Source: Vulcanococcus limneticus LL (GTDB taxonomy: Bacteria; Cyanobacteriota; Cyanobacteriia; PCC-6307; Cyanobiaceae). From it: DNA of 64,000 bases. This document shows, one piece after another, positions 7,798 through 57,235 of this stretch. A program made the translations under genes and the position numbers. The notes under the pieces were generated by a model. It made no database searches. It was not told where the DNA came from and saw nothing but the letters and a program-made list of their open reading frames with translations. Location of the stretch: contig NZ_NQLA01000001.1 in the NCBI RefSeq assembly GCF_002252705.1, positions 124,001 through 188,000 on the forward strand, read 5' to 3'. Positions within the stretch are counted from its first letter, which is position 1; each line of letters begins with the position of its first letter.

Positions 7798-7978
7798 AGA
7801 CCATGGCTGAGTAAAAATACCTAAACTGATACATTGACAGCGTTGGGTTGCATCCCACGGGGCGCGTTGCGGCAGCACTCTTGCCGTCTCAGCGTCGTCA
7901 CTGCAGGGCCGCCAGCGCGGCCAGCGGCTGGCTTCTCCTGGGCTGTCGTCCGACCGATCTCCCCCCGATCAAGCTGAG

Positions 7979-20885: not shown

Positions 20886-21169
20886 CCCCCGTGCCCCGGA
20901 GGCCACTGGTTTTGGACTCTGGAATGGGGGCACCAAGGCTGAGCCGGAGGCCCGGACCTCTCCCCACCCCACCCATCCGCTCCCTCTCAGGCCCACCGCT
21001 GAGCAAGTCCATTGCTGAGCAAAGCCACTGCTGAGCAGGTCCACCTGGACCCAGTGTCGGCCTTGTCCCGGTCCGCTCAACGGCAGTTCCGCCCACCAGC
21101 TCACGCCTCCGGATCCGTCTCCCCGTTCCTCCGTCCATCCTCCCCTCCAGGGCCTGTCCCTGTCCCGTC
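20886..21169 (+). other. 284-base intergenic region with repeats
   Basis: No gene seen. It holds a GTGCCCC/GGGGCAC inverted repeat (20891-20897 with 20927-20933) that could terminate the ycf51 unit, and the three-copy 16-bp tandem repeat at 20998-21045. The rest is C-rich with no tRNA or clear promoter. Confidence 0.6.
20998..21045 (+). repeat. Three tandem copies of a 16-bp repeat
   Basis: The units are GCTGAGCAAGTCCATT, GCTGAGCAAAGCCACT and GCTGAGCAGGTCCACC, exactly head to tail. The junctions create near-palindromes: TTGCT-G-AGCAA (around the second unit) and CTGCT-G-AGCAG (around the third). They lie 125 bases upstream of the small secreted-protein gene. Confidence 0.85.
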
Positions 21170-52677: not shown

Positions 52678-54099
<1,422 letters not shown>

Positions 54100-54892
54100 G
54101 GAGAAGGAGGCGCGGGAACGGCGGGAGCAAGACGGGGCTGACGCCAACGCGGTTGCGGGCGGAAGGCGCGAGGTGGCGCGCAGCTCAGTCAGCGAGGTCG
54201 AGGGTGAGATCGGGGGGAGACGTCAGCAGGCGCAGTCGGTCGGTGGCGACATCCGTCGGCGGCATCAGGCGTTGGCAGGGGCCAGGGGGGCAGGCGAACG
54301 GGCGGAACGGCGCGGAGGCGGCAGAGCCACCGGGGCGACGCCTTCTCCACGCTGGGAGCGAGACTCCAGCTGGAAGACTGCCCAGGTGTCCGCCGGGACG
54401 GATGAACCGTTCGATGGTGAACAGTTCAATGATGAACAGTTCAATGATGAAAAGTTCGGAGATGAAGTGTGTAGGGAGTGGGGCGTAGTGACAGGGGAGG
54501 CCTGGACCGAGGGCGGGTGATCCGCAGTCGGTGGGATGGGGCAGGTGGGGCGCTCAGTGAACCGCAGGGGGCAAACCCAGGAGCGTGGGGCAAGAGGGGA
54601 CGGGCCCGAGAGGGCGATCCCACGGGGGTTGGGCATGACCCGCGGCGGCAGGACCTGGGTGGAGATCCGGCCATGGGAGCGGGTCCGGGGGGGGGACGTC
54701 CGAGGCGAGAATCCTTGCAGGCGAAACCGAAACGGTGGGCAGAAGCCCGGGCAGTGCTGTCAGGGGTGGTCGCAGATCGGGGGCACAGGGTGGACCTGGC
54801 ACGGCCTCGAATCTTCCCGCTGGTGCGGAACCTTGCCGGGTTCCGACAGCAGCCCATCGGACTGCTCAACAGGCTCATTGTAAGAAACGCCC
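54100..54892. other. Gene-free 793-base rpoD/priA intergenic region
   Basis: This is the longest stretch without a gene in the window. It lies between divergent rpoD and priA and should hold both promoters. The readable frames in it are low-complexity Pro/Ser/Arg-rich and I do not accept them. It holds the four-copy tandem repeat at 54401-54460. The A/T-richer sequence ATTGTAAGAAACG (54877-54889), just before priA, is too close to the GTG to be an ordinary -10 unless priA is nearly leaderless. No tRNA or small-RNA terminator is evident. Confidence 0.75.
54401..54460 (+). repeat. Four tandem copies of a 15-bp repeat
   Basis: The units are GATGAACCGTTCGAT, GGTGAACAGTTCAAT, GATGAACAGTTCAAT and GATGAAAAGTTCGGA, head to tail; a degenerate fifth starts GATGAAG. 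Each unit carries a near-palindrome GAAC-N-GTTC (perfect in the first three, GAAAAGTTC in the fourth). It lies about 300 bases upstream of rpoD. Confidence 0.9.
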
Positions 54893-57235
54893 GTGAGCTT
54901 TGCAACAGTCGCAGCCTCGGACGCTGCTGCGAATCCCCCTGAAGGTCTTCCCGAGCGGGGCGCGCCCTGGCTGCAGGTCTGGCTGGAGGCGGGCCGGGAG
55001 GGGCAAGTGTTCACTTACGCCAACCCCGAGGGTTGGCCCCTGGCCAGCGGTGATCTGGTGCGCCTGCGGCTGCAGGGCCGGCGCCACGTGGGTCTGGTGG
55101 TGGAGCCGCTGGCGGAGCTGCCGCCCGAGCTGGCCGGCCGTCGCATCCTGCCGATCGAGGCCGTGCACCAGAGCGCGGCGGTGGACCCCCACTGGCAGGC
55201 CCTGCTGGCCCAGGTCGCCCGCGACTGCCACACCAGTCTGTTCCGCACCCTCAAGACGGCCCTGCCGCCGGGCTGGCTGGGCCAGCGGGCCGAGCGCCAC
55301 GCCAGCGCACCGCGTCGGCGCATTCGGGTGGAGGCACGGTCTGACGCCGCAGTTCCCGCGGACGCCACCGCAGGCCTCACGCCGCGTCAGCTGCAGGCCC
55401 TGGAGCTGCTGGAGCGCGCCGGTGGTGCGGCCTGGCTGAGCCCGTTCAGCGCCGCCACGGGCATCGGCCGCTCGGTGCTGGAGGCCCTGGAGCGCCGCGG
55501 CCTGGTTCGCCTGCGACGGATGGCCGACGGCCTGGAGGAGGGTGCGGTGCTGCTCCCTGGCTCGGAAGGCGTGGCGCCGCAGCTGGAGCGTCCCCAGGTC
55601 CTCACGCCCCAGCAGGACGAGGTGCTGGCGGCGATCCGCGCCGCTGCCCCCGGCCAGGCGCTGCTGCTGTGGGGCGTCACCGGCGCCGGCAAGACCGAGG
55701 TCTACCTGCAGGCTGCCGCCGATGCCCTGGCGGCGGGCCGCTCCGCCCTGCTGCTCACCCCCGAGATCGGCCTGATCCCCCAGCTGCTGGAGCGCTGCCG
55801 GCGTCGCTTTGGTTCGGGGGTGCTCGAGTACCACAGCGGCTGCAGCGAGGGCCAGCGCATTCGCACCTGGCGGCGCTGCCTGGCCAGCGGCTCACCGGTG
55901 CTGGTGGTGGGGACCCGCTCGGCCGTGTTCCTGCCCATCCCCCAGCTGGGGCTGATCGTTCTCGATGAGGAGCACGACAGCTCCTATAAGCAGGACAGCC
56001 CGATGCCCTGCTACCACGCCCGCGACGTGGCGCGACAACGGGCGCTCCGCAGCGGCGCCCGCCTGGTGCTGGGCAGCGCCACCCCCTGCCTCGAGACCTG
56101 GCTCAGCTGTCAGGGTTCCCAGCCCAGCACCACTCTGCTGCGGCTGCCGCAGCGGATCGGCAGCCGGCCCCTGCCGCCGGTGCGGCTGGTGGACATGCGC
56201 CACGAGCTGGAGGAGGGCCACCGGCGTCTGATCAGCCGGCCGCTGATGGAGCGGCTCGCAGCCCTGCCCGCCTGCGGCGAGCAGGCGGTGGTGCTGGTGC
56301 CCCGCCGCGGCTACAGCAGCTTCCTCAGCTGCCGCAGCTGTGGCGAGGTGGTGCAGTGCCCCCACTGCGATGTGGCCCTCACCGTGCACCGCAGTCGGGC
56401 CGCGGGCGGCGGCGGTGCGGGCCGGCAATGGCTCCGCTGCCACTGGTGCGATCACCGCCAGGAGATCGGCGAGCGCTGCGGCGCCTGCGGCTCCACCGCC
56501 TTCAAGCCCTTCGGCGCCGGCACCCAGCGGGTGATGGAGCAGCTGGAGGCCGAGCTGGAGGGGCTGCGGGTGCTGCGCTTCGATCGCGACACGACCCGCG
56601 GCCGCGAGGGCCACCGCCGCCTGCTCGATCAGTTCGCCGCAGGCGAAGCCGACGTGCTGGTGGGCACCCAGATGCTGGCCAAGGGCATGGACCTGCCCGA
56701 CGTCACCCTGGCGGCCGTACTGGCCGCCGACGGCCTGCTGCACCGCCCCGACCTGCGGGCTGGCGAGCAGAGCCTGCAGTTGCTGCTGCAGCTGGCGGGC
56801 CGGGCCGGCCGGGGCGACCGCCCGGGGGAGGTGCTGGTGCAGACCTACTGCCCCGAGCACCCGGTGATTCGCCACCTGGTGGATGGGCGCTACGAGGCTT
56901 TTCTGGAGGAGGAGCTGGCGCTGCGGCGCAGCGCGGGCCTCGTGCCCTTCAGCCGGGCCTGCCTGCTGCGCCTCGCGGGACCCTCTGCCAGCGGTACCGC
57001 GACGGCGGCCGCGGCCCTTGCGGAACGGATCCGGCCTGGCGTGGTGGCCGCCGGCTGGCTGGTGATCGGTCCGGCACCGGCGCCCGTGGCCCGGGTGGCC
57101 GGCCGCAGCCGTTGGCAGCTGCTGCTGCACGGCCCCACCGCCTCGGTTCTGCCCCTGGCCAGCGAGGCGGAGCTGCGGGCCGGCCTGCCCCAGGGGGTGA
57201 GCCTGGCGATCGATCCCGATCCGCTGGAGCTATAG
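54893..57235 (+). CDS. priA: Primosomal protein N' (replication restart helicase)
   Basis: DNA helicase that restarts stalled forks; 780 residues from a GTG start. The DNA-binding N-terminal part (about 1-170) includes WLEAGREGQVFTYANPEG. The helicase core has Walker A GVTGAGKTEVY and DEAD-like DEEHDSSYKQ. The family's zinc cluster shows CRSCGEVVQCPHCDVALT and CHWCDHRQEIGERCGACGS. Motifs V/VI include GTQMLAKGMDLP and LAGRAGRGDRPGEV. It is convergent with the DUF3153 gene (22-base gap). Confidence 0.97.
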   Translation: MSFATVAASDAAANPPEGLPERGAPWLQVWLEAGREGQVFTYANPEGWPLASGDLVRLRLQGRRHVGLVVEPLAELPPELAGRRILPIEAVHQSAAVDPHWQALLAQVARDCHTSLFRTLKTALPPGWLGQRAERHASAPRRRIRVEARSDAAVPADATAGLTPRQLQALELLERAGGAAWLSPFSAATGIGRSVLEALERRGLVRLRRMADGLEEGAVLLPGSEGVAPQLERPQVLTPQQDEVLAAIRAAAPGQALLLWGVTGAGKTEVYLQAAADALAAGRSALLLTPEIGLIPQLLERCRRRFGSGVLEYHSGCSEGQRIRTWRRCLASGSPVLVVGTRSAVFLPIPQLGLIVLDEEHDSSYKQDSPMPCYHARDVARQRALRSGARLVLGSATPCLETWLSCQGSQPSTTLLRLPQRIGSRPLPPVRLVDMRHELEEGHRRLISRPLMERLAALPACGEQAVVLVPRRGYSSFLSCRSCGEVVQCPHCDVALTVHRSRAAGGGGAGRQWLRCHWCDHRQEIGERCGACGSTAFKPFGAGTQRVMEQLEAELEGLRVLRFDRDTTRGREGHRRLLDQFAAGEADVLVGTQMLAKGMDLPDVTLAAVLAADGLLHRPDLRAGEQSLQLLLQLAGRAGRGDRPGEVLVQTYCPEHPVIRHLVDGRYEAFLEEELALRRSAGLVPFSRACLLRLAGPSASGTATAAAALAERIRPGVVAAGWLVIGPAPAPVARVAGRSRWQLLLHGPTASVLPLASEAELRAGLPQGVSLAIDPDPLEL

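Follow-up and report, generated by a model that had tools for sequence, protein, structure and literature searches.

Several kinds of short repeated or palindromic DNA come close to the small tandem array that lies between the divergent genes rpoD and priA of Vulcanococcus limneticus LL. The short tandem repeats of cyanobacteria known as STRR are heptanucleotide repeats in intergenic DNA. Plasmid iterons are evenly spaced direct repeats, and LexA binds SOS boxes of the GAAC-N4-GTTC type. Bacterial minisatellites (VNTR) offer a further comparison.

Like a bacterial minisatellite, the array consists of 15-bp units placed head to tail in a non-coding spacer, is lineage-specific and is partly homogenised, and the spacer that hosts it bears other short arrays in other lineages. 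It differs in the odd-centred palindrome of its unit and in half-sites that look, in the two species compared, more conserved than the linkers. With STRR it shares the presence of short tandem repeats in cyanobacterial intergenic DNA, but its unit measures 15 bp instead of 7 bp, and a search of its own genome by exact pairs gives no second array with this unit. The even spacing of its direct repeats recalls plasmid iterons. However, it occupies a chromosomal spacer with no adjoining initiator-type gene, and its contig carries no origin signals. Its GAAC and GTTC half-sites are also those of the LexA SOS box, from which the array departs by having several adjacent copies and by the distance between the half-sites, which is one base in the intact units rather than four.

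The array and its occurrence among relatives

The window, that is, the whole stretch of 64,000 nucleotides that was analysed, contains the array and its two flanking genes at the positions given in Table 1. The preliminary description had placed the repeats between the genes for the principal sigma factor and a replication-restart helicase, and NCBIfam models back both identities. It had also claimed four 15-bp direct repeats at 54401-54460, and these are present. TRF reports the array at 54401-54457 (period 15, 3.8 copies, 88% matches, consensus GATGAACAGTTCAAT), and a second row extends it to 54466 (4.4 copies). The score of 86 is the highest in the window; among 40 order-1 Markov randomisations, top scores range from 45 to 81. 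Head-to-tail copies beyond chance, as in a minisatellite, are thus found.

The half-site symmetry recurs along the array as described, with the correction that a GAAC-N-GTTC palindrome in each unit applies to units 1-3, while unit 4 reads GAAA-A-GTTC. The number of four units stands as well, and a decayed fifth, absent from the earlier list, has to be added. This fifth unit shares its register with the well-preserved unit 5 of Synechococcus sp. GreenBA-s (G016). In the window genome, a single base separates unit 2 from unit 3. The palindrome in the unit, with its 5-bp arms, is marginally unusual for the composition of the unit (shuffle p ~0.05). The array is confirmed as a real feature of the rpoD-priA spacer.

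Table 1. Genes, repeat units and other features in and around the rpoD-priA spacer (positions are those of the window)
Feature	Position	Strand	Basis
rpoD, principal sigma factor	52678..54099	-	NCBIfam model, start 54099
rpoD-priA spacer with array	54100..54892		793 bp
Repeat unit 1, GATGAACCGTTCGAT	54401..54415	+	direct reading, TRF
Repeat unit 2, GGTGAACAGTTCAAT, perfect TGAAC-N-GTTCA	54416..54430	+	direct reading, TRF
Repeat unit 3, GATGAACAGTTCAAT, perfect TGAAC-N-GTTCA	54431..54445	+	direct reading, TRF
Repeat unit 4, GATGAAAAGTTCGGA, left half-site decayed	54446..54460	+	direct reading, TRF
Unit 5, decayed, GATGAAGTGTGTAGG	54461..54475	+	direct reading, alignment to G016
Structured RNA candidate, ~120 nt, not part of the array	54755..54874	-	conservation, covariation
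Sigma70-like promoter match TTGCAA-17-TACAAT, towards rpoD	54877..54905	-	sequence match
priA, replication restart helicase	54893..57235	+	NCBIfam model, start 54893

Relatives were collected by a search with the N-terminus of PriA in 60 genomes, including that of the window, of which 59 matched; 30 loci were fetched, 25 of them from the same genus. The rpoD gene adjoins priA in 28 of these 30 loci. In L022 and L032, both from the same genus, the priA match lies 859 and 422 bases from the contig start, and no rpoD gene was recognised. The 28 complete spacers comprise 23 from the same genus and 5 from other genera of the family.

Among the 28, only the spacers of the window genome (G000) and of G016 carry the array, which makes 2 of the 23 complete same-genus spacers. 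A search with spacer DNA across 25 genomes of the genus gives the same two carriers only, and the motif is absent from L022 and L032 too. When the array region itself served as query in an initial genome-wide DNA search, short stretches were all that it returned. Absence from all relatives with the same gene order, which had been named as the outcome that would speak against the array, is therefore not what is observed, since one relative carries it; the other 21 of the 23 same-genus genomes are without it.

G016 has five diverged units in the same 15-bp register, with centres and linkers that differ from those of the window genome. Measured between gene starts that were picked by hand, the spacer is 793 bp long in the window genome, 839 bp in G016 and 366-594 bp in the other 21 complete same-genus spacers. 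The two array-bearing spacers have a G+C content of 68-69%. Conservation within the spacer is lowest around the array, where blocks of 50 columns show identities of 0.36-0.68, compared with 0.84-1.0 towards priA. Such confinement to few relatives (2 of 23 same-genus spacers) and to a divergent part of a spacer is what characterises a minisatellite.

Explanations for the array

The best explanation, to which we assign a probability of about 0.6, is that the array is a lineage-specific intergenic minisatellite with a palindromic unit and without a required function. Tandem duplication of a 15-bp segment would have taken place in the ancestor shared by the window genome and G016, within a fast-diverging part of the spacer, and the copies would later have drifted separately in the two lineages. 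Replication slippage is the probable cause; it would have been aided by the palindrome of the unit, which may allow a single unit or a pair of units to fold back. The array is probably transcribed within a long region before rpoD, given that the rpoD strand carries both a promoter-like site and a conserved RNA further upstream. Any effect of the array on rpoD would stay within this lineage.

The array is present in two related lineages, its units are diverging, and the spacer is prone to tandem duplication. Among the 26 spacers without this array, other tandem arrays reach a TRF score of at least 60 in 2 and of at least 40 in 5. Taken over all 28 spacers, 4 reach at least 60 and 7 at least 40, where order-1 shuffles lead one to expect 0.03 and 1.17. 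The units of these spacer arrays differ from lineage to lineage. In 446,416 bases of the window's own genome, 16 TRF rows, corresponding to 13 distinct arrays with the rpoD-priA array counted, fall outside coding-like ORFs as called by a crude codon-composition filter, and several of them have units of 12-18 bp. The arrays in the spacers and in the own genome imply that short tandem duplication is ordinary here. As a minisatellite, the array would be of little import, apart from indicating that the rpoD-priA spacer of picocyanobacteria collects tandem duplications. The idea that palindromic units are general in the arrays of the own genome was considered and found unsupported (13 units, shuffle p 0.05 to 1.0). 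In G016, a second 15-bp array and a 12-bp duplication (L008, 1089-1128 and 1126-1148) follow 37 and 74 bp past the main array; both are unseen in the window genome.

Comparison of the two carriers, at the level of sequence, suggests a faint sign of constraint on this otherwise ordinary small tandem repeat. When the five unit pairs of G000 and G016 are compared, 38 of 45 cells match in the nine columns of the half-sites, against 12 of 30 in the remaining six. The corresponding Fisher p of 1.2e-4 is too strong, as the units depend on one another; the comparison covers two species. The true position of the labels is the best of 15 rotations, with a one-base shift nearly equal to it (0.44 vs 0.39). 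Over the whole array, 50 of 75 positions are identical, which is not clearly above the 0.36-0.68 of the neighbouring 50-column blocks. The A+T-rich half-sites have been kept in both lineages in spacers that are otherwise rich in G+C (68-69%), and three units of each species retain 4-5 of 5 dyad matches. The unit's most variable columns include the palindrome centre, and units 4-5 of G000 and 2-3 of G016 are decayed.

This pattern can be read as that of an operator array, in which a dimeric protein would recognise TGAAC-N-GTTCA at several adjacent sites and tune rpoD, perhaps also priA. Half-sites that are conserved between G000 and G016 next to variable centres and linkers, and three well-matched units per species, agree with such a role. 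So does the number of degenerate GRTGAACNGTTCR matches with at most two mismatches, which is 30 in the window (both strands) against 6.5 expected from dinucleotide shuffles, 24 of the 30 being outside the array. Only 4 of 60 permuted-arm palindromes, the motif itself counted, reach 24 (mean 7.9, sd 7.2); codon usage is the likely candidate for the cause of the excess. In a search of seven genomes with three mismatches, the counts among the matches listed are mostly near those of the control, for example 32 vs 27 in G000, with the exception of G197 (40 vs 18). Beyond the array, the own genome has one perfect TGAACNGTTCA site and G016 has two. All three fall within long open frames, and codon composition marks two of them as clearly coding-like, the remaining one (L040) being a less clear case; hence no perfect-site regulon is visible. 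The earlier proposal of repeated protein sites divides in two: the half-site columns would fit it, and the scarcity of perfect sites elsewhere weakens its extension to a general operator. Since the array is restricted to 2 of 23 complete same-genus spacers, has decayed units in both carriers and belongs to a type that control palindromes form too, an operator function is unlikely.

The array might instead act in the RNA, where neighbouring palindromes would pair as one or two hairpins and influence the stability, processing or translation of the rpoD message. Predicted folding of the array region beats shuffles on both strands in both species (z -2.9 to -4.9), and folding was also run with DNA parameters. 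On the rpoD strand, the G000 array reaches -20 kcal/mol (z -4.9, 0 of 200 shuffles), and units 2 and 1 are predicted to pair as a 10-pair hairpin with a 6-nt loop. Similar hairpins between neighbouring units are predicted for the rpoD strand of G016 (z -3.8), where two deviations of unit 2 are wobble-compatible. That this strand carries, further upstream, a promoter-like site and a conserved RNA would fit such a role too. However, the plus strand folds too (z -2.9 in G000 and -4.3 in G016), because tandem palindromes fold well on both strands by construction, and any array of this kind would fold alike. In addition, one of the G016 hairpins has a mismatched centre, and 21 same-genus spacers retain the conserved RNA block and rpoD without the array. 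A function as an RNA element would thus be rather improbable.

The array could also be a lineage-specific regulatory add-on before rpoD whose half-sites are kept by selection, and which would tune this gene through either a multi-copy operator or hairpins downstream of the structured RNA candidate described below. We regard this as doubtful. If it were true, arrays of GAAC/GTTC palindromes at other picocyanobacterial loci would be further instances of the same device. Should the conservation of the half-sites reflect binding or RNA structure, the main sigma factor would be under a lineage-specific control.

The remaining two readings have much less in their favour than the minisatellite. The preliminary description called the repeats iteron-like and proposed a check for an origin, and evenly spaced direct repeats beside a replication-restart gene would indeed suit replication iterons. 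However, the flanking genes are rpoD and priA, which are not of the initiator type, and 21 of the 23 same-genus genomes retain this pair without the array. The window and the entire contig C1 (226 kb) contain no TTWTNCACA box, and a DnaA-domain match (C1:35524-36006) is 142 kb away from the array. The coincidence with the cumulative GC-skew minimum for which that check was meant does not hold either, the minimum of C1, a single contig, being at 7858 and the array at C1:178401. The initiator gene or DnaA boxes and the skew minimum that mark plasmid iterons and origins are thus missing, with the skew taken from one contig. The origin reading was rejected on these grounds and has next to no probability; the position of the array beside priA is no ground for calling an origin.

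It is very improbable that the array is part of a gene for a small protein whose pentapeptide repeats would be DEQFN-like (plus strand) or SSLNC-like (minus strand). Both genomes do have open frames that cross the array on each strand. However, the ORF of the plus strand lies antisense to the start of rpoD, and the variable centre column of the unit would be a second codon position. The two ORFs tested through the array have no Pfam match, and the translations of G000 match G016 only piecewise and in several different frames, so that no frame is conserved between these relatives. With frames that are not conserved and no Pfam match, the coding reading was rejected, and the earlier judgement that no credible gene runs through the repeats is upheld.

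A candidate structured RNA in the same spacer

The spacer also harbours a candidate structured RNA (Table 1), located upstream of the array in the rpoD direction. All 23 genus spacers conserve this block; in the 5 spacers from other genera, its conservation is weaker. RNAalifold proposes 36 pairs in it; in 20 sequences, 96.2% of the cells pair, and 9 pairs have changed on both sides. None of 500 shuffles reaches any of five measures, and sliding the partners cuts pairing to 32-43%. These values are biased in favour of the structure by its derivation from the alignment also used for testing and by the relatedness of the sequences. Cells with G-U (51) exceed those with A-C (6), which implies an RNA on the rpoD strand.

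With 18 sequences, a covariance model was constructed that matches 17 of the 242 genomes of the class; these 17 represent 9 genera, all of the window's family, with one place in each genome. The model itself drew on three of the matched genomes (G000, G020 and G029). Three of the 17 matches are weak, with E from 3e-4 to 0.0075. All 17 matches are between rpoD and priA and in the sense of rpoD. Among the 29 family members listed, 12 are unmatched, 11 of which belong to one small-genome genus (g37).

At E <= 1, no Rfam family matches the RNA in the window stretch or at 16 loci; the single weak match elsewhere has an E of 0.74 and is under the gathering score. A literature search outside subscription journals gave no match to the RNA either, and the main texts of PMC1242208, PMC2518516, PMC7368042, PMC2662882 and PMC5069720 name neither priA nor rpoD. 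The structured RNA candidate may be undescribed.

A sigma70-like promoter match is found directly upstream of the RNA candidate; at its second hexamer, most relatives have TTAAGAT-like letters. The candidate may be a leader of rpoD or a small RNA of its own, and it is possibly a better lead than the array. It could prove more useful than the array, since as a candidate leader or small RNA it would concern the housekeeping sigma factor in a group of ecological importance.

Palindromic arrays at other loci

Of 399 genomes of the order, 4 (G000, G016, G165 and G197) contain the strict pattern, a pair of TGAACNGTTC units spaced by 15 bases; in the latter two, the pairs are at loci unrelated to rpoD-priA. 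The 15-bp arrays there (L053 1493-1538 in G197 and L052 1500-1529 in G165) have a TGAAC-N-GTTC core and lie directly 3' of open frames. In a passage of PMC6291074, the letters of a motif word belong to a primer.

Three looser pair patterns were compared across the same 399 genomes with an equal gap range, and TRF was checked at the matched place. Pairs of GAAC-N-GTTC are found in 18 genomes, 5 of them with a period of 15, and 8 of the 18 have the pair in a TRF array scoring at least 50. These 8 genomes (G225, G211, G302, G170, G165 and G197, together with the two rpoD arrays) reduce to 7 independent loci, since G000 and G016 have one locus in common; one more genome scores 37. The half-swapped control GTTC-N-GAAC is present in 6 genomes, in all 6 within arrays and in three with a 15-base period. 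The unrelated control CTTG-N-CAAG occurs in 23 genomes, 11 of whose matches resemble one single site in related genomes of one genus. It lies in arrays in 3 cases, all three within open frames of more than 350 codons. The number of array loci is 7 for GAAC-N-GTTC, 6 for GTTC-N-GAAC and 3 for CTTG-N-CAAG.

Judged by these counts, the exact half-site order of the array is not special, because control palindromes also form arrays. There may be a preference for GAAC/GTTC palindromes in picocyanobacterial arrays, as far as small numbers and one unrelated control indicate. A dispersed GAAC-N-GTTC repeat family across picocyanobacteria, which seemed promising from G165 and G197, was weakened by the array counts of the control palindromes.

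Further tandem arrays of GAAC/GTTC palindromes are found at L060 1496-1570 (G225), L068 1476-1533 (G170), L063 1491-1553 (G302), L114 1481-1568 (G264) and L112 1501-1549 (G201), with either order of the half-sites and periods of 12-19 bases. Arrays of GAAC/GTTC in either order are perhaps a composition habit of picocyanobacterial arrays. Two other arrays of the window's own genome deserve mention. A four-copy 15-bp array with the unit CAAGCGGCTAGGCAC is located at G000:C1:37869-37927, mostly outside coding-like ORFs and about 1.9 kb from the DnaA-domain match. In the window, a 16-bp array with the unit CCACTGCTGAGCAAGT (20993-21044, 3.2 copies), which is outside coding-like ORFs, contains the palindrome TGCT-G-AGCA.
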